Shown here: positions 1 through 37,765 of the stretch, in pieces
Layout: every line of letters begins with the position of its first letter
Position numbering within the stretch: position 1 is the first letter of the stretch
DNA from: Formosa sediminum
GTDB taxonomy: Bacteria > Bacteroidota > Bacteroidia > Flavobacteriales > Flavobacteriaceae
Reading direction: 5' to 3'
DNA length: 64,000 bases
Assembly: GCF_007197735.1 (NCBI RefSeq)
Contig: NZ_CP041637.1
Span: 930,001-994,000, forward strand
The notes under the pieces: generated by a model
What the model was told of the DNA's origin: nothing
The model's input: the letters and a program-made list of their open reading frames with translations, nothing else
Database searches by the model: none
Made by a program: the position numbers and the translations under genes

Positions 1-1586
1 TGCAAGAAAAAATTAGTGATGAAGAACTATCAGATAAATTTAAATACTTAAATAAACAGAATAAAAAACAAAAACGGAGTTTAGAACAGCTTGTAGAATT
101 AACTAAACGGTTTTATGTTGCAAAAAAAATCGAAAAGTTACAGCAAGATTTAGAGACTTTAGCCAACGAACAATTAGAGTTAGCAGATAAACCCAAATCT
201 GAAAACACTTCAAAAAAACAAGATGAACTTAATAAACAATTTAATGATTTTCAAAACGATTTAGATGCTTTAGAAAATGAAAATAAAGCATTAAAAAAAC
301 CAATGGATTTACCTAGAGATTCTGAATCAGAATCGCAAATAGATAATTTACAAAAAGAAGCATCACAAGATTTAAAAGAAAGTGAATCTACAGAAGATTC
401 AGATTCAAAATCGGCAGAGTCTGAAGCTAAGAAAAAGCAAAAGCAGTCTGGACAAAAAATGAAACAAATGAGTCAGTCTATGCAACAATCTATGCAAATG
501 TCTAGTGGTGAACAAATGGAAGAAGATGCTGAGATACTTAGACAAATTTTAGATAATTTACTAATTTTTTCTTTCGATGAAGAAGCATTAATGAATCAAT
601 TTAAAAGTATAGAAGCACATGATAATAGTTATGCTAAATACTTACGTAAACAACACGATCTAAGAGAATATTTTGAACATGTGGATGATAGTTTGTTTTC
701 TTTGTCTTTAAGACAACCTATGTTATCTGAGCAAGTAAATAATGAAGTCACTAAAATTTATAATTATTTAGATCTTTCTCTTGAAGAATTTTCCGAGAAT
801 TTAATATATCAAGGCATTTCATCTCAACAATATGTGTTCACATCTGCTAATGTTTTGGCAGATATTTTGAGTAATATACTGGATAATATGGAAGACCAAT
901 TAAATGCATCTTCGTCTTCTGCTTCTGGACAGGGTAGTGGTAAACAGTCTAGTAAATCAGAAGGTCAGCTTCAAGATATCATTATGAGTCAAGAGCAACT
1001 TAATAAACAAATGCAACAACAAATGGAAGGTGAAGGGTCTAGCAAAGGTGAGGGCGAAGGTAATGAAAAAGAAAGTGAAAGTGGTGAGTCTGGAGATTCA
1101 GGATCTGATGGTAACGATAAGCAAGGTTCCAAGGAAGGTGATGGAAATTCTAATAATAATGGTAAACTAAATTCTAATGAATCTTTAAATGGTGAATTAT
1201 TTTCCATATACCAAAAACAACAAGAGTTACGTAATCAACTTCAAGATTTGATGGATCAAGAAGGCTTAACTAGAGATGCACAAAATCTTTTAAAGCAAAT
1301 GGAAGATGTAGAAATGGATTTATTAAATGATGGGTTTACACAAAAGACTTTAGAAAAAATGATGAATTTTGAACATCAACTTTTAAAGCTTCAAGATGCG
1401 ACTTTTCAGCAAGAGCAAGAAAAACAGAGACAATCTAAAACTAATGATTTAGAATTTAATAATACTTCTACAGATAAATTACCCCATGCTAAACAATATT
1501 TTAATACTATAGAGATATTAAACAGACAAATCCTACCTTTGCAGCAAAGTTTTAAAAATAAGGTACAACTTTACTTTAATAAATAA
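1..1586 (+). CDS. DUF4175 family protein, C-terminal part (5' truncated by window edge)
   Basis: The reading frame is open from base 3, so the start lies before the window; the ATG at 303 is internal. What is visible is a highly charged, glutamine-rich, probably coiled-coil protein with a low-complexity stretch rich in Gly, Ser, Glu and Asn at about 900-1190. In Bacteroidota, large proteins of the DUF4175 family have an N-terminal membrane part followed by such a coiled, Q/E-rich tail, and this gene commonly sits just before ybeY and mnmG, as here. The stop is two bases before ybeY, which implies co-transcription. Molecular function is unknown. Family assignment rests on composition and gene order, not on a recognisable catalytic motif. 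Confidence 0.7.
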   Translation, partial: QEKISDEELSDKFKYLNKQNKKQKRSLEQLVELTKRFYVAKKIEKLQQDLETLANEQLELADKPKSENTSKKQDELNKQFNDFQNDLDALENENKALKKPMDLPRDSESESQIDNLQKEASQDLKESESTEDSDSKSAESEAKKKQKQSGQKMKQMSQSMQQSMQMSSGEQMEEDAEILRQILDNLLIFSFDEEALMNQFKSIEAHDNSYAKYLRKQHDLREYFEHVDDSLFSLSLRQPMLSEQVNNEVTKIYNYLDLSLEEFSENLIYQGISSQQYVFTSANVLADILSNILDNMEDQLNASSSSASGQGSGKQSSKSEGQLQDIIMSQEQLNKQMQQQMEGEGSSKGEGEGNEKESESGESGDSGSDGNDKQGSKEGDGNSNNNGKLNSNESLNGELFSIYQKQQELRNQLQDLMDQEGLTRDAQNLLKQMEDVEMDLLNDGFTQKTLEKMMNFEHQLLKLQDATFQQEQEKQRQSKTNDLEFNNTSTDKLPHAKQYFNTIEILNRQILPLQQSFKNKVQLYFNK

Positions 1587-1588
1587 TT

Positions 1589-1999
1589 ATGGTATATTTT
1601 AATTATGAAACCGATTTTGAATTAGTCAATGAAGATGTGTTAGCTAATTGGATAAATACGACTATTGTTAAAGAAGGTTGTAAAGAAGGTGAAATTAATT
1701 ATATTTTTTGTGATGATGAGTATCTACATAAATTAAATGTGGAGTTTTTAGATCATGATACGCTTACTGATGTGATTAGTTTTGATTATTGTGTTGGTAA
1801 AGAAATTCATGGAGATATTTATATTTCTATAGAACGTGTAAAAGATAATGCAATTGATTTTAAAAATGACTTTATAGACGAATTACACCGTGTTATTATT
1901 CACGGAATATTGCATTATTGCGGTTATAAAGACAAGTCAGAATCAGATGCTACACTCATGAGGAGCAAAGAAGATTATTACCTTTCTATTCTACAATAG
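1589..1999 (+). CDS. ybeY: Endoribonuclease YbeY (rRNA maturation factor)
   Basis: YbeY is a single-strand-specific, zinc-dependent endoribonuclease involved in 16S rRNA 3' end maturation and ribosome quality control. The protein is 136 residues, slightly short for the family. The metal motif region is clear: H105 and H109 lie in HGILHYCGYKDK. The third ligand position, a histidine in the Escherichia coli motif (H-x3-H-x5-H), is D115 here; a GYKDK ending is, to my recollection, usual in Bacteroidota, so this is a lineage variant and not decay. The gene follows the DUF4175 gene by two bases and precedes mnmG by about 100 bases that carry two parS-like palindromes. Confidence 0.92.
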   Translation: MVYFNYETDFELVNEDVLANWINTTIVKEGCKEGEINYIFCDDEYLHKLNVEFLDHDTLTDVISFDYCVGKEIHGDIYISIERVKDNAIDFKNDFIDELHRVIIHGILHYCGYKDKSESDATLMRSKEDYYLSILQ

Positions 2000-2005
2000 T
2001 TAATT

Positions 2006-2021
2006 TGTTCCACGTGGAACA
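2006..2021. other. parS-like palindrome 1
   Basis: TGTTCCACGTGGAACA is a perfect 16-base palindrome. It differs at one position from the Bacillus subtilis parS site TGTTCCACGTGAAACA, the sequence bound by the chromosome partition protein ParB. It lies in the ybeY-mnmG gap, and the same right flank (ATGTG) follows copy 2. No parA or parB gene is in the window, so the assignment rests on sequence similarity alone. Confidence 0.75.
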
Positions 2022-2060
2022 TGTGTATCTCATTTTTAATTATTCTTTTTTATAACTATA

Positions 2061-2076
2061 TGTTCCACGTGGAACA
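2061..2076. other. parS-like palindrome 2
   Basis: This is a second perfect copy of TGTTCCACGTGGAACA, 55 bases after the first (start to start) and 30 bases before the mnmG start codon. It is again followed by ATGTG. Two identical 16-base palindromes in a 100-base gap is far beyond chance in such AT-rich DNA. Confidence 0.75.
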
Positions 2077-2105
2077 TGTGATTTTTAATTTTTAAATTTA
2101 ATATC

Positions 2106-3977
2106 ATGTTTGATAAAGTTTATGATGTTATAGTTGTTGGTGCTGGACATGCAGGAAGTGAAGCTGCTGCATCAGCTGCAAATATGGGAAGTAGTACATT
2201 GTTAATTACAATGAATTTGCAAAACATAGCTCAAATGTCTTGTAATCCTGCTATGGGAGGTATTGCTAAAGGACAAATTGTGCGCGAAATAGATGCTTTA
2301 GGTGGTTATAGTGGAATTGTTAGTGATACATCTGCAATTCAATTTAAAATGCTAAATAAATCTAAAGGTCCTGCAATGTGGAGTCCAAGAGTGCAAAGTG
2401 ATCGTATGCGTTTTGCTGAAGACTGGAGAATGATGTTAGAACAAACTCCAAATTTAGATTTTTATCAGGACATGGTTTCTGGATTAATAATAGAGAAACA
2501 TAAAGTGGTTGGTGTAAAAACATCTTTAGGTATAGTGGTAAGAGCTAAATCTGTGGTGTTAACCAATGGTACCTTTTTAAATGGTTTAATTCATATTGGT
2601 GATAAAAACTTTGGCGGCGGTAGAGCAGGGGAACGTGCTGCAACTGGTATCACGGAACAACTTGTGGATTTAGGTTTTCAATCTGGAAGAATGAAAACAG
2701 GAACACCACCTCGAGTGGATGGGCGTTCTTTAGATTATTCTAAAATGATTGAACAGCCTGGTGATGATACTCCAGAAAAATTCTCCTATTCAGATGTTAC
2801 AAAACCATTAACTACACAACGTTCTTGTTATATGACTTACACTAGTAATTTGGTGCACGATTTACTACGTGAAGGGTTTGATCGTTCTCCTATGTTTAAT
2901 GGACGAATTAAAAGTTTAGGCCCAAGATATTGTCCGTCTATAGAAGATAAAATTAATCGTTTTGCAGATAAAGATCGTCATCAATTATTTATTGAGCCTG
3001 AAGGATGGAACACCTGTGAGGTATATGTAAATGGTTTTTCAACTTCACTTCCAGAAGATGTTCAGTTTAAAGCTTTGCGTTCTGTGGCAGGATTTGAAAA
3101 TGTAAAATTTTTCAGACCAGGTTATGCTATCGAGTACGATTATTTTCCCCCAACGCAATTAAAACATACTTTAGAGACTAAGTTGGTTGAAGGTTTATAT
3201 TTTGCTGGACAAATAAATGGAACAACAGGTTATGAAGAAGCCGCTTCTCAAGGTTTAATGGCAGGTATAAATGCAAGTCTAAAAGTACAAGAACGTGACG
3301 AATTTATACTTAAACGCAATGAAGCTTATATAGGAGTTTTAATTGATGATTTAATTACAAAAGGGACAGAGGAACCTTATCGTATGTTTACGTCTCGTGC
3401 AGAGTATAGAACATTGTTAAGACAAGATAATGCAGATTTTAGATTAACGCCTAAAGGGTTTGAAATTGGTTTAGCTTCTGAGAAGCGTTTAAAACGTATG
3501 GAAGATAAACATAACAAAGCGGAACAATTTGTTCAGTTTTTTAAAGATTTGAGTGTTAAACCAGAAGTTGTAAATCCGATTTTAGATGACAAAGAATCTG
3601 CATTAGTAAATCAATCAGGTAAATTATTCAAAATTTTTGCTCGTCCAAATATTGAGATGAATGATGTACGTAAGATAAATGAAGTAGAACAATATATTAC
3701 AGATAATAATTTAGATCGCGAAATTATTGAACAAACAGAAATACAAGTTAAGTATGCTGGCTATATTGAAAAGGAAAAAAATAATGCAGATAAGTTAACA
3801 CGTTTAGAAGATATTAAAATTCCACCCAACTACGATTATTCACAGATTAAATCAATGAGCTTTGAAGCAAGAGAAAAGTTAAGAAAAATTCAGCCTACAA
3901 GTATATCTCAAGCCTCAAGAATTAGTGGTGTATCCCCTAATGATATTTCTGTTTTATTAGTATATATGGGTAGATAA
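2106..3977 (+). CDS. mnmG: tRNA uridine-5-carboxymethylaminomethyl synthesis enzyme MnmG (GidA)
   Basis: MnmG with MnmE adds the carboxymethylaminomethyl group to the wobble uridine of several tRNAs, using FAD, methylene-tetrahydrofolate and glycine. The 623-residue length is normal. Visible motifs are the FAD-binding GAGHAG at residues 12-17, the family signature GPRYCPSIEDKI near residue 275, and the second signature GQINGTTGYEEAASQG near residue 370. The C-terminal helical MnmE-binding part is intact (ISGVSPNDISVLL). mnmG (gidA) often lies near the replication origin in bacteria, which fits the parS-like sites on both sides. Confidence 0.97.
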   Translation: MFDKVYDVIVVGAGHAGSEAAASAANMGSSTLLITMNLQNIAQMSCNPAMGGIAKGQIVREIDALGGYSGIVSDTSAIQFKMLNKSKGPAMWSPRVQSDRMRFAEDWRMMLEQTPNLDFYQDMVSGLIIEKHKVVGVKTSLGIVVRAKSVVLTNGTFLNGLIHIGDKNFGGGRAGERAATGITEQLVDLGFQSGRMKTGTPPRVDGRSLDYSKMIEQPGDDTPEKFSYSDVTKPLTTQRSCYMTYTSNLVHDLLREGFDRSPMFNGRIKSLGPRYCPSIEDKINRFADKDRHQLFIEPEGWNTCEVYVNGFSTSLPEDVQFKALRSVAGFENVKFFRPGYAIEYDYFPPTQLKHTLETKLVEGLYFAGQINGTTGYEEAASQGLMAGINASLKVQERDEFILKRNEAYIGVLIDDLITKGTEEPYRMFTSRAEYRTLLRQDNADFRLTPKGFEIGLASEKRLKRMEDKHNKAEQFVQFFKDLSVKPEVVNPILDDKESALVNQSGKLFKIFARPNIEMNDVRKINEVEQYITDNNLDREIIEQTEIQVKYAGYIEKEKNNADKLTRLEDIKIPPNYDYSQIKSMSFEAREKLRKIQPTSISQASRISGVSPNDISVLLVYMGR

Positions 3978-3984
3978 TATTTTT

Positions 3985-4000
3985 TGTTCCACGTGGAACG
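3985..4000. other. parS-like palindrome 3 (one mismatch)
   Basis: TGTTCCACGTGGAACG differs from copies 1 and 2 only in the last base. It starts eight bases after the mnmG stop codon and is followed by TGTGTAT, again the same right flank, then a run of T. A role as an mnmG terminator is possible, but the stem would be only six pairs and the T-run is displaced, so a ParB site is preferred by analogy with the two perfect copies. Confidence 0.65.
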
Positions 4001-4076
4001 TGTGTATTTTTTTTTTAAAACTAGTTATAACTTATTATATTTTGAAATATAAATTCAAGATTTCAAATTTAATTTC

Positions 4077-4934
4077 ATGAATAAAACATCAAATTCAGTG
4101 TATTTAAAATGTAAAGATCATACTGTAAGTTCAGAGCAATTTGATTTATTACACGATTTAGAATTAGATATTTTGATTACTTCTCCACAACCTAAAATAG
4201 AAGATCTTGGAAGGTATTATGAAAGTGAAGATTATATTTCTCATACAGATGCTAAGCGTAATGTGTTTGAAAAATTATATCATGTAGTAAAAGGAGTGGC
4301 CTTAAAACGTAAATTAAAATTAATTAATAGTTTTAATACGTCTGAAAAAACACTTTTAGATGTAGGTTGTGGAACTGGAGATTTTTTGCAAACGGCAAAA
4401 TCTAATGCTTGGAAAGTTTATGGTATAGAACCGGATAGTAATGCACGTAATTTAGCTATTACGAAAGTGGGGAATTCTGTTTTCGATTCAGCTAAAATTA
4501 ACGAATTGCCACAAAATTCTTTTGATGTTATTACGCTTTGGCATGTTTTAGAACATTTGCCAAATTTAAATATGCATATTGCAAACTATAAGCGTTTATT
4601 AAAAAAAGATGGTGTGCTAATTGTTGCTGTGCCAAATTTTAAAAGTTTTGATGCAACATATTATAAATCGGTTTGGGCGGCTTTTGATGTGCCCAGACAT
4701 CTATGGCATTTTTCGCAAACAGGAATCTCAAAGTTATTTGCTAAGCATGATTTTAAAGTAGTAAAAACATTACCAATGATTTTTGATGCTTTTTATGTAA
4801 GCTTACTTTCTGAAAAGTATAAAACTGGTAAAATGAATTTTATTAAAGCTTTAAAAGTAGGTTTGCAGTCTAATTTAAAGGCAAAACAGTCTAAAGAGTA
4901 TTCTTCATTAATTTATATAATTAAAAACGAGTAA
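4077..4934 (+). CDS. Class I SAM-dependent methyltransferase
   Basis: This 285-residue protein carries the glycine-rich SAM-binding motif I, LLDVGCGTGDFL, near residues 97-108, an acidic motif II (VYGIEPDS) and a post-motif ITLWHVLEHLPN typical of the Methyltransf_23-like group. The substrate cannot be told from the sequence. Genes of this type are often found directly after mnmG in Flavobacteriaceae, so it may act in RNA or small-molecule modification; that is inference. It begins about 100 bases after mnmG, beyond parS-like copy 3, and is followed by a 230-base gap. Confidence 0.85.
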   Translation: MNKTSNSVYLKCKDHTVSSEQFDLLHDLELDILITSPQPKIEDLGRYYESEDYISHTDAKRNVFEKLYHVVKGVALKRKLKLINSFNTSEKTLLDVGCGTGDFLQTAKSNAWKVYGIEPDSNARNLAITKVGNSVFDSAKINELPQNSFDVITLWHVLEHLPNLNMHIANYKRLLKKDGVLIVAVPNFKSFDATYYKSVWAAFDVPRHLWHFSQTGISKLFAKHDFKVVKTLPMIFDAFYVSLLSEKYKTGKMNFIKALKVGLQSNLKAKQSKEYSSLIYIIKNE

Positions 4935-12394: not shown

Positions 12395-12469
12395 AAAGAC
12401 GAATTTAGCCGCTTTCACGTTATACCAATTAAAGGTTTTATTAATGAAACAGCGACTAAATTCGTCTTT
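12395..12469 (+). promoter_or_regulatory. Long inverted repeat enclosing the start codon of the lytic transglycosylase
   Basis: AAAGACGAATTTAG (12395-12408) is the exact reverse complement of CTAAATTCGTCTTT (12456-12469). Pairing can continue inward over 12410-12417 and 12445-12454 with one mismatch and a two-base bulge, giving about 22 pairs. The loop holds the A-rich ribosome-binding region, and two bases of the ATG at 12444 are inside the stem. It could mask translation, or act as a pgk terminator, as the distal arm is followed by TTTATTTTATTT. Confidence 0.6.
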
Positions 12470-14090
12470 ATTTTATTTAGCATTTTTACAAATAATATGT
12501 TTGTATGCGCAAGATTCACAGGTAAATACTGTGAGTTCAGATACTTTAGTTGTAGCCGAAACTAATGATAAAACACAACCGTTAGTTGCAGAGCGTTTAA
12601 CAGAAGATATGTTAGTCTCTGGAGAAAAATATGTTGTAGACACCATTATTGCTGGTAAAACATATTACAAGAAAGCTCTTAAAATTACAGATTCTTTAAG
12701 CATTACAGATTTAAAAGATCATGCTTATTCTGCAAAAGTAGATCAGCTCTGGTTAGACGAACTCTATAATAATACACTTTACGATTCTATTTATGAGTCT
12801 GTAACCGATTTAACTTACGAAGAAGTAGACTATCCAGAACTAAATACAGATACACTTAAAAAACGGTTAATAGATTTAGATGCAAAAACCCCCTTTAATG
12901 TGGCTTACAATCCCGCTTTAGAGAGTGTGATTAAATCGTATTTAAAACGCAGACGAAATTCACTTCAAAAATTAATGGTTTTAAGTGAATATTATTTTCC
13001 GATGTTTGAGCGCGAATTAGATAATTATAATCTTCCTTTAGAAATTAAATATTTATCTATAGTAGAGTCTGCTTTAAAACCCCGTGCAAAATCTAGAGTT
13101 GGAGCCACTGGTTTATGGCAATTTATGTATACTACAGGAAAGTCTTACGATTTAGATGTTAGTAGTTATGTTGATGAGCGTAGCGACCCATTAAAATCTA
13201 CTGCAGCAGCGGCAAAATATTTATCTAAATTATACTCTATTTTTGGGGATTGGGATTTGGCGTTAGCAGCTTATAATTCTGGTCCAGGAAATGTAACAAA
13301 AGCCATTAGACGCTCTGGAGGTTACGAAAATTATTGGAATATTAGAAATTACCTTCCACGTGAAACAGCTGGTTATTTACCTGCATTTTTAGCAACAATG
13401 TATATTTTTGAAAATGCTGAAGAATTAGGATTTTCAAGATCAAAACCAGAAATAGCATACTTAGAGACCGATACCCTTCATGTAAAACAAATGATTACTT
13501 TAGATCAAGTCTCTGAAGTTACAGGAGTTAAAATTGAAGAATTACAGTTTTTAAATCCAACCTACAAGCTAGATATTATTCCGTTTATTAAAGATAAAAC
13601 CTATACGTTACGATTACCTGTAGAAGCCATAGGGCCTTTTGTTGCAAATGAAGAGCTAATATATGCTTTTGCTAAGGCTGAATTTGATAAACGAGAAAAA
13701 CCATTGCCAGAATTAATTGATTCTGAAACTAAAACACGATATACGGTAAAATCTGGCGATTATTTAGGTAAAATTGCTCGAAAATATAACGTGCGCGTCA
13801 GTCAGATTAAACAATGGAATGGTTTGAGAAGTAATAACTTAAGTATTGGACAACGGTTAACTATTTACCCTAGAAATGCATCAGTAATTCCAAAGAAAGT
13901 AATGCCAAAACCAACAACATCTACAGTGCAAACTTCTGGCGGACACACTTATGTTGTTAAAAAAGGAGACTCTTTATGGAGCATCGCTCAAAAACATTCT
14001 GGAATTTCTGTTGAAAATATTAAAGAATGGAACGATATTAGCGGTACAAGTTTAAAACCAGGAATGACCTTAAAAATGTACAAAGGCTAA
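12444..14090 (+). CDS. MltD-like membrane-associated lytic murein transglycosylase with LysM domains
   Basis: The 548-residue protein has an N-terminal signal peptide (to about CLYAQ, residue 23), a family-specific region, then an SLT/lysozyme-like domain at about 175-320 with the catalytic-Glu motif LSIVESALKPRAKS and GATGLWQFM and AAYNSGPGNV. A degenerate LysM-like segment follows near 345-390 and two good LysM repeats at about 430-475 and 505-548. Such enzymes cut the glycan strands of peptidoglycan to 1,6-anhydro ends. The start codon lies inside a long inverted repeat. The next gene follows after 23 bases. Confidence 0.92.
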   Translation: MKQRLNSSLFYLAFLQIICLYAQDSQVNTVSSDTLVVAETNDKTQPLVAERLTEDMLVSGEKYVVDTIIAGKTYYKKALKITDSLSITDLKDHAYSAKVDQLWLDELYNNTLYDSIYESVTDLTYEEVDYPELNTDTLKKRLIDLDAKTPFNVAYNPALESVIKSYLKRRRNSLQKLMVLSEYYFPMFERELDNYNLPLEIKYLSIVESALKPRAKSRVGATGLWQFMYTTGKSYDLDVSSYVDERSDPLKSTAAAAKYLSKLYSIFGDWDLALAAYNSGPGNVTKAIRRSGGYENYWNIRNYLPRETAGYLPAFLATMYIFENAEELGFSRSKPEIAYLETDTLHVKQMITLDQVSEVTGVKIEELQFLNPTYKLDIIPFIKDKTYTLRLPVEAIGPFVANEELIYAFAKAEFDKREKPLPELIDSETKTRYTVKSGDYLGKIARKYNVRVSQIKQWNGLRSNNLSIGQRLTIYPRNASVIPKKVMPKPTTSTVQTSGGHTYVVKKGDSLWSIAQKHSGISVENIKEWNDISGTSLKPGMTLKMYKG

Positions 14091-27997: not shown

Positions 27998-28025
27998 TTA
28001 ATAAATAACAATTAAATAGATATAA

Positions 28026-28083
28026 AAATCCATTAAAAAGATATGATTAAAATCGTATCTTTTTAATGGATTTACTTTTTTTA
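28026..28083 (+). terminator. Very long hairpin after cysN
   Basis: Bases 28026-28048 pair with 28051-28073 over about 23 positions with one G-U wobble (core AAATCCATTAAAAAGATA / TATCTTTTTAATGGATTT). A T-rich run follows at 28076-28082. It sits just after cysN and before a -7 promoter box for the next genes, so it probably separates two transcription units. Confidence 0.7.
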
Positions 28084-28087
28084 ATAG

Positions 28088-28095
28088 TAACTTTG
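28088..28095 (+). promoter_or_regulatory. Candidate -7 box upstream of the wzx-to-glycosyltransferase genes
   Basis: TAACTTTG matches TAnnTTTG. It would give an mRNA leader of about 85 bases before the GTG start of wzx, containing a nine-codon open frame (ATG at 28135). No good TTTG -33 element is seen, so this is tentative. Confidence 0.4.
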
Positions 28096-28186
28096 TGGTC
28101 TTTTTATAAAAAGCAAAAATAATTTAAAGCTGTTATGTTATTTAAAGAAAAAATAGTTTCTTAAATACAGGTAAAATTAATAGAGG

Positions 28187-29431
28187 GTGACAAGTTATTT
28201 AAAAAAAAACAAAAAAATTTTAGAAAATTTTTCTTACTTAACAGCGTTAAATTTATTTAATGTACTTTCTCCGTTAATAATCTATCCGTATCTTATTAGA
28301 GTATTAGAGCCTGATAATTATGGGCTAACAATTTTTGCACAAACAACAGTTGCATATTTGGTTATTTTTGTTTCCTTTGGTTTTAATGTTACCGCAACTA
28401 AAGAAGTGAGTATTAACAGAGACTTTCCTGAAAAATTAAACGAAATAGTTAGTGCTACATTTATAATTAAGTTTTTGTTATTTGTCTCTTCTTTTTTAAT
28501 CTTAATACTACTATTTAGCCTTATACCTAAAGTAGGAAATAATAAAGTATTATTTATTCTTACAATGTGGTTATGTTTTTATGAATTTGTATTCCCTGTG
28601 TGGTATTTTCAAGGGATTGAAAAGATGAAATATATTACTCTGTTTTCATTAATTAGTAAATTAATTAGCTTAATATTAATCTTTTTTTTAGTAGTAAAAG
28701 AATCTGATTATCTTCTTGTACCTCTATTTAATGGAATAGGTGGGATAATCGCCGGATTATTTTCTTTGTATATAGTTTTTAAAAAACATAAAGTTAAGCT
28801 TAAAATATGTAGTATAAGTGTTTTAAAATATCATATAAAAGACTCTTACTTAATCTTTATATCTCGTGTTTCGAATATAAAAGATAATACACCAGCTTTT
28901 TTAGTTGGTGCATTATTGGGAAACCAAGCGTTAGCTTATTACGATTTAGCCTTTAAAATAGTAAAAGTCGTTGTAAGTGTATTTAATAATGTTACTAATG
29001 TTGTTTTTCCTGTAGTTGCAATGAAAAAGGATAATAAATGGTTTAAAAAAATACTAATTGTTGAATTTTTTAGTTTGATAGTTTGTTATTTAATCTTAGT
29101 TATTTTCCGAGATTTTATTGTGACTTTATTAGGGAGTGGGCAGATGTTGCCAGCAAGTCCTTTAATACCAATATTGGGTATAATGGTAGTAAGGCCACTA
29201 GCATCATTAATTGGATCATGTGTGCTAATCACTAATGGTCTAAATAAAGAATTTACCCTAAATTTAATCTATTCAACGTTATTTTATTTGGTCATCACTC
29301 TCGCTTGTTGGGGAGCTGAAATATTAGATATATATACCATATCATGGGGAATTGCTTTGGCTCAATTATTTGAGTTATTCCATAAAATATATATAATAAA
29401 AACAAAAAAATTAATTCATTGGATAATATAA
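28187..29431 (+). CDS. Wzx-type polysaccharide flippase (MATE/MOP superfamily)
   Basis: The 414-residue protein is nearly all membrane helices (12 or more) and begins FSYLTALNLFNVLSPLIIYPYLIRVLEPDNYG, the standard opening of oligosaccharide flippases. It would move lipid-linked repeat units across the inner membrane. The start is GTG at 28187, preceded by a purine-rich AGAGG; an in-frame stop lies two codons upstream, so no longer start exists. It overlaps the next gene by 13 bases. Confidence 0.9.
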   Translation: MTSYLKKNKKILENFSYLTALNLFNVLSPLIIYPYLIRVLEPDNYGLTIFAQTTVAYLVIFVSFGFNVTATKEVSINRDFPEKLNEIVSATFIIKFLLFVSSFLILILLFSLIPKVGNNKVLFILTMWLCFYEFVFPVWYFQGIEKMKYITLFSLISKLISLILIFFLVVKESDYLLVPLFNGIGGIIAGLFSLYIVFKKHKVKLKICSISVLKYHIKDSYLIFISRVSNIKDNTPAFLVGALLGNQALAYYDLAFKIVKVVVSVFNNVTNVVFPVVAMKKDNKWFKKILIVEFFSLIVCYLILVIFRDFIVTLLGSGQMLPASPLIPILGIMVVRPLASLIGSCVLITNGLNKEFTLNLIYSTLFYLVITLACWGAEILDIYTISWGIALAQLFELFHKIYIIKTKKLIHWII

Positions 29432-30348
29432 GATTACCACTTGTTAGTATTATGATTCCTACTTATAATCAAGCTAAGTATATTGAAAATACAATAGATA
29501 GCGCTCTGAGTCAGGACTATAGTAATCTAGAAATTATTATTTCTGATGATTGTTCTCCGGATGAAACACAAAGGATTTGTGAAAAATATTTAAAGAAGAA
29601 TTGTCAAATTAAATATTTTAGAAATAAAACTAATTTAGGCAGAGTTAAGAATTATCATACTACTTTATTCAATAGAGCTAAAGGTGAATACGTTTTAAAT
29701 TTAGATGGTGATGATTTATTGACAGATAAATCGTTTGTTAGTAATGGAATAAAGAGAATATTGGCAATTAAAAATCCTGATCGCCCTTTATTATATATTG
29801 CTTGTAAAAGTGCTAAGAAGAATAATAAAATTAAGAAAATTTTACACAAAATAAACGAAGAAAATAAATTGATAAAAGGAGAGGATTTTATTTATGGATT
29901 ATTTACTAAATATAAATTTTCTCATCTCACGACTATTTATAATAGATCTGAAGCATTAAAACATAATTTTTATTCTTTAAATGTAATTTCATCAGATTCA
30001 GAATCTCTATTAAAACTTGCATGTCACTCAAACGTAATGATTTCAAAAGATATAGTGGGACAGTGGTGTGAAGTAGATAACAACGAGAGTCTTACAGTAA
30101 ATTTTAATAAACGTTTAGATAATTTAAAATGGATTTCTTCAATAGATGCGTACTTAAAGGATAAAATTCCTTGGAAGAAGAGGTTTGTTTGGAAAATAAA
30201 AGCTTTATATTTTAATGGAAGATGGGTTTATTCTTCTTTACTAAGAAAAGAGAATTTTTCAACCACGAATCTAAAATATTTATTAAAAAACAAGTACTTT
30301 GTTTATTTACTTATTTTAACCCCTTTTTTCGTTATTAAAAATAAATAA
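29419..30348 (+). CDS. Family 2 glycosyltransferase
   Basis: A 309-residue GT-A transferase: LVSIMIPTYNQAKYIENTID at the start, IIISDDCSPDET near residue 36, and the metal/nucleotide motif LNLDGDDLL near residue 95. The start is TTG at 29419, inside the end of wzx; the next ATG (29452) would remove the first conserved strand, so TTG is preferred. Donor and acceptor are not predictable. Confidence 0.88.
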   Translation: MDNIRLPLVSIMIPTYNQAKYIENTIDSALSQDYSNLEIIISDDCSPDETQRICEKYLKKNCQIKYFRNKTNLGRVKNYHTTLFNRAKGEYVLNLDGDDLLTDKSFVSNGIKRILAIKNPDRPLLYIACKSAKKNNKIKKILHKINEENKLIKGEDFIYGLFTKYKFSHLTTIYNRSEALKHNFYSLNVISSDSESLLKLACHSNVMISKDIVGQWCEVDNNESLTVNFNKRLDNLKWISSIDAYLKDKIPWKKRFVWKIKALYFNGRWVYSSLLRKENFSTTNLKYLLKNKYFVYLLILTPFFVIKNK

Positions 30349-30405
30349 TTATTTTATATCAACGTGTAAGATTTATTAGTTGATACAGCAATTGAGAATA
30401 AGTAT

Positions 30406-31332
30406 ATGAATTCTAAACTTCCTAATTTTATAATTTCAGGTTTTCCCAAATGTGGTTCTTCCGCATTGCATTATTATTTAGAAAACCATCCAGAAATATT
30501 TATGCCTAAACAAAAAGAGCTTCATTTTTTCACGAATGATATTCTTGCAAAACTTAATCAAGGACCTGGAGATAAGGCAACTAAAATAAGTCAGATTAAA
30601 TTATTGGAAGACTACGAAAAATGTTTTAATGACGTAGGAGATGAGCTGGTTATTGGAGATGCTTCTCCATCTTATATTAATTACCCTGAGAAGTTTCAAG
30701 AGATAAAAGATACGTTATCCGACCCTAAGGTGATTATCTTATTAAGAGACCCTGTTAAAAGAGCTTATTCAAACTATTTACACCTAGTTAGAGAAGGAAG
30801 AGAAAGTTTAAGCTTTTATGAAGCTCTTTTAGAAGAAGAAAATAGAAAGAAGAAGAAATTTTCAGATTTTTGGTATTATCGATTTAATTCTACATATACA
30901 GAGAAAGTACAGAAGGCTCAGGAAGTTTTTAGAGATGTATTAATTATAACACAGGAAGAATTAAACTCAGAACCAAAGGAAACAATTAAAAGTATTTTTA
31001 CTTTTTTAAATGTTAATGCAGACTATATACCTACTAATTTGAGTGAGCGATATAATGAAGGTGGTGTTTTTGAAGATAATTTTATTACACGAACATTTTT
31101 TAAGCAGAGTAAATTAAAAAGTTTTATAAAAAAAAGGTTTCCTATTCCAGTTGAAATAAAAAACATTAAAAATAAAGTTGTAAATAATTATAGAAAACCA
31201 ACTCCATTAATTGATGAGAAGGCAGAAGCATTTTTGGTAAAATCATTATCTGAAGATGTTTTAAAGATCAAAAAATTAGGAGTAGATACTTCAGTGTGGA
31301 ACAAGAAGTTTTTAATAAAAACTAAGGTTTAA
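30406..31332 (+). CDS. PAPS-dependent sulfotransferase
   Basis: At 308 residues this is a Sulfotransfer-type enzyme that moves sulfate from PAPS to a glycan hydroxyl or amine. The 5'-phosphosulfate loop ISGFPKCGSSALHYYL is at residues 10-25, with the catalytic Lys15, and the 3'-phosphate-binding segment VIILLRDPVKRAYSNYLHL is at 109-127 with the expected Arg and Ser. It is placed between glycosyltransferase and polymerase genes and a few kb after cysC/D/N, which make its donor. It overlaps the next gene by one base. Confidence 0.92.
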   Translation: MNSKLPNFIISGFPKCGSSALHYYLENHPEIFMPKQKELHFFTNDILAKLNQGPGDKATKISQIKLLEDYEKCFNDVGDELVIGDASPSYINYPEKFQEIKDTLSDPKVIILLRDPVKRAYSNYLHLVREGRESLSFYEALLEEENRKKKKFSDFWYYRFNSTYTEKVQKAQEVFRDVLIITQEELNSEPKETIKSIFTFLNVNADYIPTNLSERYNEGGVFEDNFITRTFFKQSKLKSFIKKRFPIPVEIKNIKNKVVNNYRKPTPLIDEKAEAFLVKSLSEDVLKIKKLGVDTSVWNKKFLIKTKV

Positions 31333-32747
31333 TGAAAACTATATTCATTCGAAAATCATTACCATATACATTGCTGTTATTAGGTGTGTTTTTTATGCCC
31401 TTTAATTCTTTTAATGGTTTTGAGGTTCTTGGTGAATTTAAAAGAGATTCTTGTTTTTTATTTTTTTTTCTATCAGGTGTGTTAATTTTTTTTACTAAAA
31501 AAATTAAATTTCCATTTTATAGTACTTTATTTAAAGTAGTGCTTTTAATCGTGTTTTATTTTTTTATTAGTGGGATATTGAATGTTTACGATATGTCTCA
31601 TTATTATTTTAAGCATACTTCAGGTCTTAACCGGTTTATAAGACAAATTACTTCATTACTATTATCTTCTGTTTTTTTGATTTATGTTTTCTATAATGTC
31701 TTAAGGCATTATGAAGTAAATGAAATTTTTTTTACTTTAAGAAAAGTTATATCATATTCCTTACTTATCGTTGCTCTATATGGATTTGTGGAGTTTTTGA
31801 TTGTTAAGGGTAAAAGGACCGAATTAATGCCAATTCTTAATTTATTTAATTATTTTCCTTTTACTAAAGCTCATATAGATTGGACAACCAATAGAATGTC
31901 TTCTGTTTCTTTTGAGTCTCCTGCTTTGGCTACATATTTAATTAGTATAGCAGGTTGGATGTTTAGTTATGTACTAACAGAAAAAGGTTTTAAGAGATTC
32001 ATTCCAATGTTTTTAACCATTATTTTATCCTTTTTAAGCGGTTCTCGTGCAGGTATTTTTGTAATTGTTATTCAAGTTTTAATTTTAGTAATGTATTTAA
32101 TGAAGGATAAAAGGTTTAAAAAACTTTTTATCAATATATTTCTTATTAGTTCTGTTTTAGGTACTTTAATGATGCTTTTTTACTCAAAGCCTATTATTGG
32201 ATACATCTCTTCAAAAGTTATGTCTTTTAAGACTAGTGATGATGTACATGCAATGTCTAATAAAACTAGATTTGGTATACAGACAGCTATGTTTGAGGTG
32301 TTTTTAAATAATCCAATAAAAGGTGCCGGTTATGGGTTACAGGCTTTTGAATCTAGTAAATTGTATCCGGAATGGGCTGTTAAAGGAAATTGGGAATTTA
32401 AGTACAAGTATTTAAATGACAAACATAAAGGTTTCCCCCCAGGTTTTAATTTATATTTGCGATTATTGTCAGAGACAGGAGTAATTGGGTTTACTTTTTT
32501 TATGTTCTTAATAGTAATGCTACTTTCATGGTGCTACAAAAAGACTTTTAAAAGACAAGGTTTTCAGTCTGTAATTCCTTTAATGATTACAATCTCTATG
32601 GTTGGATTTGCTTTTAATTGGTTAAAAATGGACACATTTAGAATTTACTTTTTTTGGTTATGTTTAACGCTAATAATTTTAATACAAAGACAAGGAACTC
32701 GTGATGAACGAAAAAAGAATAATAGTTTTAATACCCCATTACAATAA
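31332..32747 (+). CDS. O-antigen polymerase/ligase family membrane protein (Wzy-like), copy 1
   Basis: The 471-residue protein has about 10-12 membrane helices. The Wzy_C/WaaL-type region is recognisable: LSGSRAGIFVIVIQVL near residue 237, then a large periplasmic loop ending KGAGYGLQAFES and a final FFMFLIVMLLSWCYK helix. It would polymerise flipped repeat units or ligate the chain. The C-terminal tail overlaps the next gene by 44 bases. Confidence 0.82.
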   Translation: MKTIFIRKSLPYTLLLLGVFFMPFNSFNGFEVLGEFKRDSCFLFFFLSGVLIFFTKKIKFPFYSTLFKVVLLIVFYFFISGILNVYDMSHYYFKHTSGLNRFIRQITSLLLSSVFLIYVFYNVLRHYEVNEIFFTLRKVISYSLLIVALYGFVEFLIVKGKRTELMPILNLFNYFPFTKAHIDWTTNRMSSVSFESPALATYLISIAGWMFSYVLTEKGFKRFIPMFLTIILSFLSGSRAGIFVIVIQVLILVMYLMKDKRFKKLFINIFLISSVLGTLMMLFYSKPIIGYISSKVMSFKTSDDVHAMSNKTRFGIQTAMFEVFLNNPIKGAGYGLQAFESSKLYPEWAVKGNWEFKYKYLNDKHKGFPPGFNLYLRLLSETGVIGFTFFMFLIVMLLSWCYKKTFKRQGFQSVIPLMITISMVGFAFNWLKMDTFRIYFFWLCLTLIILIQRQGTRDERKKNNSFNTPLQ

Positions 32748-33504
32748 TCCCGAATGTTTAGAAACATCTATTCTATCTATAGATGATAGAATTCAAGTAG
32801 ATCTATTAATTATAGATGATGGCAGTAGTAGAAAACCAAATGAAGCTGAGTTAAATCAAGCCTATAAGAATGGTGAGATTTATTTTGAATATTTAATAGA
32901 AAATAAAGGGTTGAGTAACGCTTTAAATAAAGGTATTTTTTTTGCTCAAACTAATAAATATGAATTTATAGGACGATTAGATTGTGGAGATCGTTGTTTT
33001 AAAAATAAATTTTCAAAACAATTAGATTTCTTAGATAATAATGATAAAATAAAATTGTTAGGAACTTGTGCAGTTGTTGTAGATGAAGAAGGTAACGAAT
33101 TATTTATGTTAAATCATCCTCTTAAGCATGAAGAAATAAAGAAGAAAATGTATCTAAATAACATGTTCGTTCATCCTACAGTTATTATTAGGACTAATGT
33201 TTTTAAGAGTGTTGAAATGTATGATGAAAAATATACCAGAGCGGCTCAAGATTATGCTCTTTTTTTTAGAATAATAAAAAAGTTTCAAGTAGCTAATTTG
33301 CCAGAACCTTTATTGTATTATGAAATATCATCAAATTCTATTTCATCAAAAAGGAGACAGTTGCAAGTTAGGCATAGAATAAAAATTATATTAGAAAATT
33401 TTTATTTTGGATTTCATCCTATATATGGTTTAACTAGAAATACTATTTTATTTTTTATGTCAAGAGAAGCCACAACAAAATTAAAATTGATCTTTAAAAA
33501 GTAA
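32704..33504 (+). CDS. Family 2 glycosyltransferase
   Basis: A GT-A transferase of 266 residues from the ATG at 32704; a GTG at 32701 directly before it is a possible alternative. It shows IIVLIPHYNNPECLETSI, LLIIDDGSSRKP near 38, ENKGLSNALNKGI, and FIGRLDCGDRCF near 88, where the DxD is degenerate (D-C-G-D). The reading frame overlaps the end of the Wzy-like gene by 44 bases, suggesting translational coupling. Confidence 0.86.
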   Translation: MNEKRIIVLIPHYNNPECLETSILSIDDRIQVDLLIIDDGSSRKPNEAELNQAYKNGEIYFEYLIENKGLSNALNKGIFFAQTNKYEFIGRLDCGDRCFKNKFSKQLDFLDNNDKIKLLGTCAVVVDEEGNELFMLNHPLKHEEIKKKMYLNNMFVHPTVIIRTNVFKSVEMYDEKYTRAAQDYALFFRIIKKFQVANLPEPLLYYEISSNSISSKRRQLQVRHRIKIILENFYFGFHPIYGLTRNTILFFMSREATTKLKLIFKK

Positions 33505-33518
33505 AGAGAATCTAACTG

Positions 33519-34733
33519 ATGAATTACAAAAAATACCTTGAGATTTTTTACGAATATTTATTCTTAATTTTTTGCCTAATTGTGCCTTTTGAAGAGTATG
33601 TTAGTGCTATTCCAAATATTTTAATAGGAGTATTATTGGCTATTTATTTGGTTGTATGTAAAAAGAATCAATTTAAGTATTTATTTAAAAATAAAAGTTA
33701 TATAGTTTGGTTAGGGTTCGTTTTATATATTTTTCTTATTGCCATATTTAATAATAGAGTCTCTGAAGATTTTTTTATTTTAAAAAAATTATTGCTACCA
33801 GTTATCATTGTGCTCTTAGGAATTAATGTTTCTAATTTTAATAGATGTAAACTTTGGTTTATAGCAGGTACTGTGCTATCTGTTTTAATCTCTTTTATAG
33901 GTGTATCAAAATATTGGTTTTCAGAAAATAACTTTAATTTTACCTCAGGAGATTTTATCAATCAGATTTTAGTATCCGAACGTATATACATAGGGTTTTG
34001 TGTCGCTATTAGTCTTGTGTTTTTGTTAGAGTTATTCAAGAATAATAAGGAAATTAAGGTTAAGATTTTATGTTTTGTTTTAATAAGTTTATTGCTTTCA
34101 TTTTGTTTTATTATAGCGGCTAGAATTGCAATTGTTTGTATTGTTTACATTCTGATTCTCTTTTTTTTAAGTTTAAAAAATGTAAAAATAAAATTTTGGG
34201 GTATAATTTCATTTATAATATTCATTGGAATATTTTTTATGTTAAATAAGAACTTAACAAATAGATTTTTTCATTCAGATAATAAGTATCATATTAGTTA
34301 CTATGAGAAGGTATCACAACAAGAACCAAGGGTTTTAATTTGGAGTTGTGCTTATGGAATATTCAAGAATAATTTTAAACCTTTTTTAGGGAATGGATTT
34401 TATAATATTAAAAATCAACTTGTAGATTGTTACGATAGTAATATAGATGTAATTAAAAAAAGAAATTGGTATGTAGAGCGTAGCTTTAATTCTCATAATC
34501 AGTACATCGATTTTTTATTAAGTTCTGGGTGGATTGGGATTGTGTTATTTCTTCTCATATTATATTTAATGTTAACGACTTCTAAAATTAGTTTTTATAC
34601 ATTGTCGCTTTTAGGGAGTGTTATGTTAATTTTATTGATTGAAAATATTTTTCATAGACAGATTGGGTGTTATTTGTTTTCACTTGTTTGGATCTCTTTA
34701 CTAAAAAATGGTAATATTAAATTTGAATTTTAA
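33519..34733 (+). CDS. O-antigen polymerase/ligase family membrane protein (Wzy-like), copy 2
   Basis: A 404-residue protein with about 10-12 membrane helices, unusually rich in Phe, Ile and Leu. IIAARIAIVCIVYILILFF near residue 205, a loop with EPRVLIWSCAYGIFKNNFKPFLGNGFYN and SFNSHNQYIDFLLSSGW near 325 match the Wzy_C domain pattern. Its sequence is clearly different from copy 1 at 31332-32747, so it is not a recent duplicate. One copy may be the polymerase and the other the ligase. Spacing to both neighbours is under 20 bases. Confidence 0.82.
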   Translation: MNYKKYLEIFYEYLFLIFCLIVPFEEYVSAIPNILIGVLLAIYLVVCKKNQFKYLFKNKSYIVWLGFVLYIFLIAIFNNRVSEDFFILKKLLLPVIIVLLGINVSNFNRCKLWFIAGTVLSVLISFIGVSKYWFSENNFNFTSGDFINQILVSERIYIGFCVAISLVFLLELFKNNKEIKVKILCFVLISLLLSFCFIIAARIAIVCIVYILILFFLSLKNVKIKFWGIISFIIFIGIFFMLNKNLTNRFFHSDNKYHISYYEKVSQQEPRVLIWSCAYGIFKNNFKPFLGNGFYNIKNQLVDCYDSNIDVIKKRNWYVERSFNSHNQYIDFLLSSGWIGIVLFLLILYLMLTTSKISFYTLSLLGSVMLILLIENIFHRQIGCYLFSLVWISLLKNGNIKFEF

Positions 34734-34738
34734 AAAAA

Positions 34739-35860
34739 ATGATAAAAGTCATTCATGTTTTACATGCAGTAGGTGGTGTTGATGTGTATTTAAGATTGCT
34801 TTTGGCAATAATGGATCACAATAAATTTGAGCATATTATTATTAAAGGGGAAAATGACACTCATGAAACTTATTTTCGTCCAGATGGTAAGCTTATTAAG
34901 GTTTATAAGCTTCCTATCGACAGAGAAATTAACTTTATTGAAGATTTTAAATCTATTTCTCAAGTTGTTAAAATATTTAAGAATGAAAGACCAGATATTG
35001 TACATGCTCATAGTGCCAAAGGTGGAATTATAGCTAGATCTGCAAGTGTGTTTTATAAAGTAAATGTTTTACATACACCTCATGCCTATTCATACTTAAG
35101 TGCAGATTATGGTTTTAAACGTCGCATATTTCTGTTTATAGAGAAATTTTATAAACATATTAATTCAAAACTATTGGCTACATCAAATTCTGAGATTAAT
35201 AGAGGTCTTATTGATGTAGGGTACAAAGAGGAAGATGTATATCTTTTTAATAACTCTATATTACCAATAGAAGAGATAAAACCATTAAAAATAAAAAAGA
35301 CTTGGCCTGATAATTATATTTGCTCTGTAGGACGACCTTCTTTTCAAAAAAACATTGAACTGATGTTAGATGTTTTGTTTGAGGTTAAAAAGCAAGAAAA
35401 CGATATTCATTTGGTTTTAATGGGTGTAGGTTATCATTCTCCAAATCTTTTAAATGTTAAAAACCTTATACAATCTTTAGGTTTAGAAAATAACGTAACA
35501 TTATTAGATTGGACAAATAGAGAAGATATCTTTTATATAATCAAGCATTCGGCTCTTTATATATCGACGGCTAGATATGAGGGATTACCTTATTCAGTCA
35601 TTGAAAGTTTAGCATTGGGTAAACCTATTGTTGCTACTAAAGTAGATGGTAATCAAGATTTAGTAAAACATAATTACAATGGGTTTTTGGTAGAAAATGA
35701 AAATGCTACAGAAATGTCTAGTTTTGTTTTAAAACTACTAAATGATAAAACACTATTCCAAACATTTTCTGAAAACTCTAAATTATTATTTGAAGAAAAT
35801 TTTAATATGAAAAATAATATAAAGGATTTAGAATGTATCTATGAAAATAATATTAAATAA
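34739..35860 (+). CDS. Family 4-type glycosyltransferase (GT-B fold)
   Basis: The 373-residue protein has a Glyco_transf_4 N-domain (VIHVLHAVGGVDVYLRLLL, then VHAHSAKGGIIARSASV) and a Glycos_transf_1 C-domain with YICSVGRPSFQKNIELML near residue 198 and the donor-site ARYEGLPYSVIESLALGKP, where two Glu eight residues apart match the EX7E motif. This is the last gene of the polysaccharide locus; a long gap without a clear terminator follows. Confidence 0.9.
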   Translation: MIKVIHVLHAVGGVDVYLRLLLAIMDHNKFEHIIIKGENDTHETYFRPDGKLIKVYKLPIDREINFIEDFKSISQVVKIFKNERPDIVHAHSAKGGIIARSASVFYKVNVLHTPHAYSYLSADYGFKRRIFLFIEKFYKHINSKLLATSNSEINRGLIDVGYKEEDVYLFNNSILPIEEIKPLKIKKTWPDNYICSVGRPSFQKNIELMLDVLFEVKKQENDIHLVLMGVGYHSPNLLNVKNLIQSLGLENNVTLLDWTNREDIFYIIKHSALYISTARYEGLPYSVIESLALGKPIVATKVDGNQDLVKHNYNGFLVENENATEMSSFVLKLLNDKTLFQTFSENSKLLFEENFNMKNNIKDLECIYENNIK

Positions 35861-36431
35861 ACTGTAAGTTTTTTTAATATTCGTTAATCATATTACGCAA
35901 TAATATTTAAAAATAAAAATGAATCATAGGTTTAAATTATCTCAATAATTGGAAGTAATAATTCGTTTTTAATTGATTTTATTTTGCTTATAAACTGTTG
36001 GTTTTTATTTGTTTGTGTATTTTTGTTTTTTGAATTTTTTTAAAAAAGATTCAATTTTTACAACTACTAAAAACTCGGTTTTCACATATAAAATTTCTGA
36101 GGTATACTTGTTGAAAATTTAAAATATTTTCCAGGTTTTTAGAAAATAAATATCATTTAAAAAAAACTCCCTTTTTTAGAAATTCTAGTGTGTTTTTTCT
36201 TCTGTTTTTTTTCATTACAAACAGATTGTTTTTCGTTTGTAATAAATCTAATTTTAAAAGTATTTGTATCTTAATTTTGTTTGTAAAGTAAGGGCTTAGT
36301 TCTCTTTTTTTATAAGCTATTATCTATTATTTATGCTGTCTAAAGTGTTCAAGGTAAATATTTTAGTTCAATGTATTTTCTTACTAAGAATAGATTATAT
36401 TTGATTGCAACAACTTAATTATACTCCATTT
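35861..36431. other. Non-coding gap after the polysaccharide locus
   Basis: About 570 bases of very AT-rich DNA without a credible gene. A nine-pair inverted repeat (ATTACAAAC 36214-36222, GTTTGTAAT 36235-36243) lies before a TAATTTTG box at 36272-36279, which may be the -7 element of the metallopeptidase gene about 150 bases downstream. Confidence 0.6.
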
Positions 36432-37493
36432 ATGAAAATTTTTCAATGTAGTCACTGTAATTTTCCTGTTTTTTTTGAGAATACAACTTGTGAAAGTTGT
36501 GGTTTTGATTTAGGATATTTAGACGTAGAAAACGAAATTTTAGCCAATACTTCGGATAGTTTAGAATGGATTGTTAAAGACCAGACGTATGTATATTGTA
36601 AGAATCATAATTTTAATGCATGTAACTGGTTAGTACCTAATAATGATACTAATGGTTTTTGCACTTCATGCGATTTAAATAGAACCATACCAGATTTAAA
36701 AGTTCCAGAATATTACGAGCGTTGGCAAATTATGGAAATTGCAAAACATAGATTAATTTATACATTGCAACGTTTAGAGCTTCCTCTAATTAGTAAGTTT
36801 GATAATCCTGAAACAGGTTTGTTTTTTGATTTTCTTTCAGAAGAAGCTGCAAATGCTGGGGAAAATAAAATTATGATGGGTCATGCAAATGGCGTAATTA
36901 CAATCCTTTTGGCAGAAGCAGATTCTGTAACTCGAGAAGAAATGCGTATCTCTTTAAATGAAAAATACAGAACTTTAATTGGACATTTTAGACATGAGGT
37001 TGGACATTATTACTGGGATATAATATTTAAAACGAATAAAACATTTTTATCTGAATACAGAAGTTTATTTGGTGATGAACGATTAAATTATGCAGAAGCT
37101 TTACAAGCCCACTATAAAAATGGGGCACCTAAAGACTGGAAAAATAATTTTATTAGTACCTATGCTTCTTCTCATCCTTGGGAAGATTGGGCCGAAACTT
37201 GGGCTCACTATCTTCATATTTTAGATACTATGGAGACTGCTTATTATTTTGGTCTAGAAGGTAAACCTAACCTAAATAATTCTAGTCATATGCGGGTCTT
37301 TTCAATATATCCTTATAAAGAAGGATTGTCCTTTAAAACAATACTAGATGAGGTTTCTCCTTTGTTCTATGCTGTTAATAGTATAAATAGATCTATGGGA
37401 ATTACAGATGTATATCCATTTGTAATATCAGATAAAGTTAAAGAAAAATTAGAGTTTATTCACGATATAGTTTGTCGCTTTAAAACTCATTAA
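36432..37493 (+). CDS. Zinc-ribbon putative metallopeptidase (DUF2248-like)
   Basis: From the ATG at 36432 the protein has 353 residues. Two N-terminal zinc-ribbon units are visible, CSHC with CESC at about residues 5-22 and CNW with CTSC near 65-82. The main domain has the metalloprotease signature HFRHEVGHYYWD (HExxH) and later SSHPWEDWAETWAHYLHI, supplying the further Glu and His. This fits the Bacteroidota and Proteobacteria family of putative zinc-binding peptidases. A longer frame opens with TTG at 36405 but would add nine residues before the first zinc ribbon. Substrate unknown. Confidence 0.85.
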   Translation: MKIFQCSHCNFPVFFENTTCESCGFDLGYLDVENEILANTSDSLEWIVKDQTYVYCKNHNFNACNWLVPNNDTNGFCTSCDLNRTIPDLKVPEYYERWQIMEIAKHRLIYTLQRLELPLISKFDNPETGLFFDFLSEEAANAGENKIMMGHANGVITILLAEADSVTREEMRISLNEKYRTLIGHFRHEVGHYYWDIIFKTNKTFLSEYRSLFGDERLNYAEALQAHYKNGAPKDWKNNFISTYASSHPWEDWAETWAHYLHILDTMETAYYFGLEGKPNLNNSSHMRVFSIYPYKEGLSFKTILDEVSPLFYAVNSINRSMGITDVYPFVISDKVKEKLEFIHDIVCRFKTH

Positions 37494-37577
37494 TCTCCTT
37501 TAAACTAAGATCTTTTACCTTAATCTCTGCCCAAATTAATTGTAAATATCTAACTCGCAATAAGTGTGTAATGGGTG

Positions 37578-37598
37578 TACGTATAATTAGTATACGTA
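37578..37598. other. Eight-pair inverted repeat upstream of the two-helix membrane protein gene
   Basis: TACGTATA and TATACGTA are separated by ATTAG. It lies in the 270-base gap between the metallopeptidase and the next gene, 168 bases before that gene's ATG. It could be an operator or a hairpin. There is no T-run. Confidence 0.4.
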
Positions 37599-37765
37599 AA
37601 ATGTTAGAGTGTGTAATAATTATACAATGTTGTAAAATTAAATAACATATAAGTTGTTGGTAAACAATGTGTTGTACTTGTTGGCATATGTATTGATAAT
37701 TATTTAACAATTCCAGTAATAAAACAGGAATGTTAATTACAAAATAATTTAGCATAACAATACTT

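Follow-up and report, generated by a model that had tools for sequence, protein, structure and literature searches.

Three 16-bp palindromes that surround mnmG in Formosa sediminum are, at a probability of roughly 0.93, parS: centromere-like sites of a chromosomal ParABS system, situated close to where GC skew puts the replication origin and served by a distant parAB locus. We analysed a window of 64,000 nucleotides, by which we mean the whole stretch of DNA examined around these sites. The palindromes and the genes beside them are arranged as follows.

1589..1999, plus strand: ybeY (rRNA maturation RNase), upstream neighbour of mnmG
2006..2021, no strand assigned: probable parS copy 1, TGTTCCACGTGGAACA, no mismatch, 6 bp past the ybeY stop codon and 84 bp ahead of the mnmG start
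2061..2076, no strand assigned: probable parS copy 2, TGTTCCACGTGGAACA, no mismatch, 29 bp ahead of the mnmG ATG
2106..3977, plus strand: mnmG (gidA), 623 aa, scoring 850.8 bits with TIGR00136 (cut-off 524.85), bracketed by the sites
3985..4000, no strand assigned: probable parS copy 3, TGTTCCACGTGGAACG, one mismatch, 7 bp past the mnmG stop codon
4077..4934, plus strand: methyltransferase-like gene, downstream neighbour of mnmG, matching methyltransferase families, none above cut-off

Positions and mismatch counts confirmed what an earlier, sequence-only reading of this DNA had described, namely two perfect copies and one single-mismatch copy flanking mnmG, each with TGTG directly to its right. 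The palindromes fit the consensus of chromosomal parS, TGTTTCACGTGAAACA, once C is also accepted at position 5 and G at position 12. When up to 3 mismatches were allowed, the window contained four matches, compared with a mean of 0.15 in 100 dinucleotide shuffles, none of which reached four. The fourth match, which has 3 mismatches and is found at position 13352 within an open reading frame (12444-14090), looks like background, because 500 kb of other genome stretches, with 10 kb of the sample counted twice, yielded 7 matches to TGTTYCACGTGRAACA at up to 3 mismatches. In the entire contig (3,934,786 bases; a 3.93 Mb genome), no copies at up to 2 mismatches occurred besides these three, all within 2 kb, and a scan of the whole genome for the 16-mer therefore found it clustered, not scattered round the chromosome. 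A reversed-pattern control matched the same contig twice at up to 2 mismatches and never at up to 1 mismatch; chance is thus exceeded by the near-perfect match and the clustering, and not by the bare count at 2 mismatches. An Rfam search of the window returned nothing at gathering score. Further along the window, positions 28001-38000 have a G+C content of about 0.26-0.27, against about 0.30-0.33 around them, and nearly all long open reading frames in this segment are on the same strand.

The sequence-only reading had also suggested that the sites may mark a centromere-like region near the chromosome origin, with GC skew and dnaA as points of reference. We refer to the genomes and loci that were compared by G and L numbers, with G000 being F. 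sediminum itself. Sampled GC skew along its contig was mostly negative to about 880 kb (with +0.010 at 410 kb) and became mostly positive between about 900 kb and 2.9 Mb (with -0.009 at 2.7 Mb). A contiguous profile of 800-994 kb placed the minimum of the cumulative skew at 889,868, a point at which the open frames switch strand as well, and the sites are 42-44 kb from this minimum; the 2.5 kb skew bins in between are noisy. A coarse antipodal origin fit allows 860-1110 kb in this genome, and because such a fit was too loose for both G000 and G036, we relied on contiguous profiles of G000 and G025 instead. The skew of G025 switches sharply at 1,457,211, about 20 kb from mnmG, and in both genomes the sites are clustered in the origin domain. 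The distance from switch to mnmG was about 0-60 kb in G001, 30-110 kb in G034, 90-160 kb in G004 and about 60-160 kb in G036, where the skew is weak; for these four genomes 20 kb stretches were sampled and the switch was judged by eye between adjacent samples. An offset that varies from 0 to 160 kb by genome, together with a switch that is poorly resolved in some, counts against the parS reading. With copies clustered, a parB gene present (see below) and the skew minimum nearby, the suggested centromere-like origin region is nonetheless supported.

The expectation about dnaA did not hold in this genome. The gene is found at the contig start (G000:C1 1-1419), about 0.93 Mb from the sites and about 0.89 Mb from the skew minimum, and so the contig, which starts at dnaA, does not begin at the origin, and it is the sites, not dnaA, that mark the origin domain. 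In the seven closed genomes where both genes could be located, dnaA and mnmG are 0.54-1.41 Mb apart, and dnaA is far from the skew switch in the six of these with sampled skew. We found no DnaA-box cluster at the skew minima of G000 and G025 or at mnmG, and the genes present at the two minima differ. A predicted origin at mnmG was reported independently in the species papers on two other Flavobacteriaceae, Mariniflexile and Algorimicrobium, where the Ori-Finder origin agrees with GC skew (PMC11278836, PMC12843772); for Mariniflexile, dnaA did not match the skew plot, and the labels in the figure legend are reversed relative to the text (PMC11278836). In the accessible text of these papers, unlike here, ParB has 0 occurrences and neither parS nor any sites are mentioned.

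The sequence-only reading had noted neither parA nor parB near the sites and had supposed that they lie elsewhere, which is borne out. The genome contains a single ParB-domain match above the family cut-off, at 3,844,271, and measured the shorter way round the contig taken as a circle, the sites and parB are about 1.02 Mb apart. The canonical ParABS arrangement, with parS beside parAB at the origin, is therefore not the one found in F. sediminum. In seven closed genomes, the distance from parB to mnmG ranges from 0.17 Mb (G034) up to 1.48 Mb. The translations at the parAB locus give the order ParA-type ATPase, parB, one more gene, dapB and a signal-peptidase-like gene, the last of which we read as lepB from its translation alone; the matches above cut-off at the locus are TIGR00180 (ParB) and dapB. 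No NCBIfam model reaches its cut-off on the putative ParA, which we named from its KGGVGKTT motif and the place of its gene. ParB carries a GERRFRA motif and matched solved ParB structures (best 7bnk, E 6.4e-54). Its residues, numbered as in PMC7383237, include R173, Y179, K184 and G201, and the type that reads parS is described in the available part of that paper as having R and G at 173/201, against Q and R in Noc. The same genome thus encodes a ParB with parS-type specificity residues. ParB matches were found in 36 genomes, and the 30 ParBs of relatives that were cut out all have R173, N178 and G201; the pattern matched by 30/30 fixed R173 and N178 and accepted either G or R at 201.

Noc is a ParB-like protein with a similar palindrome (PMC7383237), and we considered it as an identity for this system. 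Its site, NBS, is given there as TATTTCCCGGGAAATA and its residues as Q173/R201, whereas the 16-mer studied here is parS and the ParB has R173/G201. An assignment to Noc and NBS was rejected, since the 16-mer is not NBS and the protein is without Q173/R201.

The G000 contig has parA, parB and parS, yet a canonical SMC condensin (TIGR02168) was not found in it. The best score was 27.9 bits against a cut-off of 567.35, and the same model scored above cut-off in 10 of 14 control genomes. A search with TIGR02168 thus did not find the SMC member of an SMC-ParB-parS loading system, and the SMC-loading half of ParB-parS function that is known elsewhere may not apply.

The arrangement around mnmG is conserved in the order. 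At up to 1 mismatch, 29 of 39 genomes have a copy, and none of the 56 copies is farther than 3 kb from mnmG; the control with the pattern reversed matched once in those 39 genomes. When we searched with TGTTYCACGTGRAACA at up to 2 mismatches within 500 bp, sites were present on both sides of mnmG at 30/37 loci, on one side at 6/37 and on neither at 1/37. Two genomes were left out of the 37: G010, which yielded no mnmG, and G019, in which mnmG is split across two contigs with one site at each piece. The siteless locus belongs to G038, whose genome measures 0.34 Mb and gave no ParB match at E up to 1e-15. The second genome without a ParB match, G008 (80% complete), does have the sites, and the ParB frame of G007 has one internal stop; both observations weigh against the parS reading. 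Copy 2 is spaced 23-32 bp from the mnmG start in five relatives of the same genus. The gene neighbourhood is kept as well. In the 900 bp upstream of mnmG, a YbeY match in the same orientation is present at 30/30 order-level loci and at 77/80 of the named loci described below, and in the 900 bp downstream there is a methyltransferase-like match at 23/30 and 76/80, respectively.

The named loci are the 80 top-ranking ones among more than 592 candidates and are mostly Flavobacteriaceae by label; they consequently lean towards close relatives, and some are perhaps of the same species as genomes in our other counts. Within 400 bp and at up to 2 mismatches, an upstream site was found at 78/80, a downstream site at 77/80 and both at 77/80. 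At the Maribacter locus L257, the downstream site is perfect and about 475 bp past the stop codon, just outside the limit. Two of the 80 have no site at mnmG within the limits, which weighs against the parS reading. One is Capnocytophaga catalasegens L289, whose mnmG lacks a site as well as any adjacent YbeY or methyltransferase match, which suggests that this mnmG left the origin locus. The other is Tenacibaculum finnmarkense L292, which has a 4-mismatch remnant only. Sites in Polaribacter and Tenacibaculum (L278, L287, L290, L294, L297) are often altered at the centre, reading CACGAG, CACAAG or CACATG, as if the site were changing there. Some Flavobacterium loci (L246, L247, L250) have upstream arrays of parS-like copies instead of the usual one or two, and the array of L247 (3812-4587 and upstream of mnmG) comprises 12 copies with up to 2 mismatches. 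The suggestion that TGTG belongs to an extended site used in this lineage fails, given that TGTG is found on the right of 1/193 mnmG-flanking sites of the 80 named loci and its reverse complement on the left of 1/193. We ruled out a TGTG-flanked extended site on the grounds that the flank is not kept in relatives.

Beyond the order, we drew 80 genomes from the phylum, F. sediminum included, each at least 90% complete. The degenerate pattern was matched with up to 1 mismatch in 78/80 and its reversed control in 14/80. Among the matches listed, 29 new loci were cut around sites, and mnmG is within 1.5 kb in 24/29; the remaining five are G040, G074, G101 and G109 from the same class (4 of 11) and G062 from the same family. 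Outside the class, we chose 30 of 61 genomes by family label after the counts had been made, such that all 17 families and both genomes with zero matches were included. A site was within 2 kb of mnmG in 27/30 of these, and sites were on both sides within 500 bp in 8/30. The exceptions were G050, with its sites on a different contig from mnmG, and G072 and G092, with none. All 30 have a ParB match, located on the mnmG contig in 7 and on another contig in 23, and where the contig is shared, parB is about 0.5-1.3 Mb from mnmG by the shorter way, as calculated from rounded genome lengths. Taken together, having parS at mnmG and parAB in another place seems to be the common layout in the phylum as sampled and not the oddity of one genome.

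The sites have close counterparts in better-known systems. The perfect 16-mer is identical to parS2 and parS3 of P. aeruginosa, where parS1-parS4 are clustered near oriC as the sites here are near the skew minimum; the differences are that parAB of P. aeruginosa is about 7 kb from oriC, whereas here it is about 1.02 Mb from the sites, and that ten putative sites are distributed along its chromosome, against three here (PMC4368675, in its available text). The same 16-mer is listed for P. putida (PMC4368675, PMC7022226), and that of copy 3 equals the Myxococcus xanthus entry in the table of PMC7022226. In the same phylum, the gut Hi-C study of B. caecimuris and M. intestinale describes parS clusters, an origin that was placed by GC skew and is not systematically with dnaA, and no known condensin found (PMC10197239). 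It differs in covering other orders and in seeking sites with TGTTTCACGTGAAACA at 2 mismatches, and mnmG has 0 occurrences in its main text. A literature search limited to open-licence papers found no published description of parS around mnmG, nor of canonical parS in this unusually fixed arrangement, with parS at mnmG and the origin, parAB and dnaA elsewhere, and no canonical SMC found.

By analogy with known ParABS biology, ParB made from the distant parAB operon (about 3.844 Mb) would bind each 16-mer as a dimer. It would load as a CTP-gated sliding clamp and spread across mnmG and its neighbours, and ParA would then move the ParB complex, along with the newly copied origin region, apart before division.

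If the palindromes are parS, the bracketing of mnmG could be meaningless or selected. The first of these explanations, which competes with the second and not with the parS reading, is that the sites are ordinary parS, that mnmG is an ancestral neighbour of the origin, and that short intergenic gaps house the sites. We consider this explanation more likely than not. The gene set often near origins includes gidA (mnmG) according to the available part of PMC2099444, just 8/30 genomes outside the class are two-sided within 500 bp, and the siteless Capnocytophaga L289, in which the usual neighbours are absent, points to sites tied to the locus and not to the gene. Against it, the two-sided pattern is kept in 77/80 named loci, and outside the class, sites stay at mnmG without a YbeY match just upstream (L321, L322, L324).

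The second explanation is that parS-mnmG-parS forms a selected unit, in which the sites would act as facing entry points for ParB, clamps would fill or be pushed by transcription over about 1.9 kb, and mnmG expression would be coupled to assembly of the partition complex, in a lineage where no canonical SMC was found. We regard this as unlikely. In the site nearest mnmG (L221-L300), the half facing away from the gene is more often degenerate on both sides: the degenerate half was outward in 26 and inward in 6 upstream sites (46 symmetric), and outward in 30 and inward in 14 downstream sites (33 symmetric). This mirror-image degeneracy (Fisher p = 2e-5 per genome, 0.03 per genus label) favours a selected unit a little and is weak when counted by genus label. 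In P. aeruginosa, one high-affinity oriC-proximal site is enough and a single site opposite the origin is not (PMC4368675, available text), which would explain why parS stays near the origin though parAB and dnaA move. It does not explain the bracketing of mnmG.

A competing interpretation of the palindromes themselves, raised by the fold and by a terminator scan, is that they are transcribed and act as RNA, in the form of hairpins or intrinsic terminators that close ybeY and mnmG at their 3' ends. Copies 1 and 3 do begin 6 and 7 bp past a stop codon, the RNA strand folds to a stem capped by a loop of 4 bases (z = -2.07, -3.89 and -1.46 for copies 1-3), and scanning 1500-4500 for terminators gave 6 hits against 0.9 in shuffles, with 5/6 overlapping the sites. 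We judge this interpretation very improbable from the substitution pattern. The 80 named loci contain 175 sites at up to 1 mismatch. In these, positions 2, 3, 4, 6, 8, 11, 13 and 14 are invariant, C or T occurs at position 5 and G or A at position 12, and the outer pair is only loosely kept, which is the parS pattern. The eight invariant positions are as expected of a DNA site read by protein, bearing in mind that the sites were preselected at up to 1 mismatch. On the sense strand of mnmG, the 5/12 pair is broken in 32 sites (C5/A12) and is changed but kept in about as many (33; T5/G12 24, T5/A12 9), so pairing is not clearly selected, which speaks for recognition as DNA. This test is uneven between sides, with 10 broken and 24 kept upstream and 22 broken and 9 kept downstream, and the upstream sites alone would not argue against RNA. 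In addition, many upstream sites end 6-30 bp ahead of the mnmG start codon, a poor place for a terminator, and the commonest right flank is ATAA (13/193), followed by TTTT (11/193).

It is more improbable still that an ordinary transcription factor controls mnmG with the palindromes as its operators, because although the sites in F. sediminum hug the start and stop of mnmG and are absent elsewhere, a site past the stop is conserved to the same degree as one ahead of the start (77/80 and 78/80), the sequence equals published parS to the letter in a genome that encodes a parS-type ParB, and none of our results points to another regulator.

With the palindromes read as parS, an evolutionary question is raised: why did parS stay by mnmG while parAB and dnaA did not? 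For Bacteroidota, parS at mnmG would provide a sequence marker for the origin domain, and in flavobacteria the mnmG locus would be the place to seek a ParB focus or a Hi-C feature.
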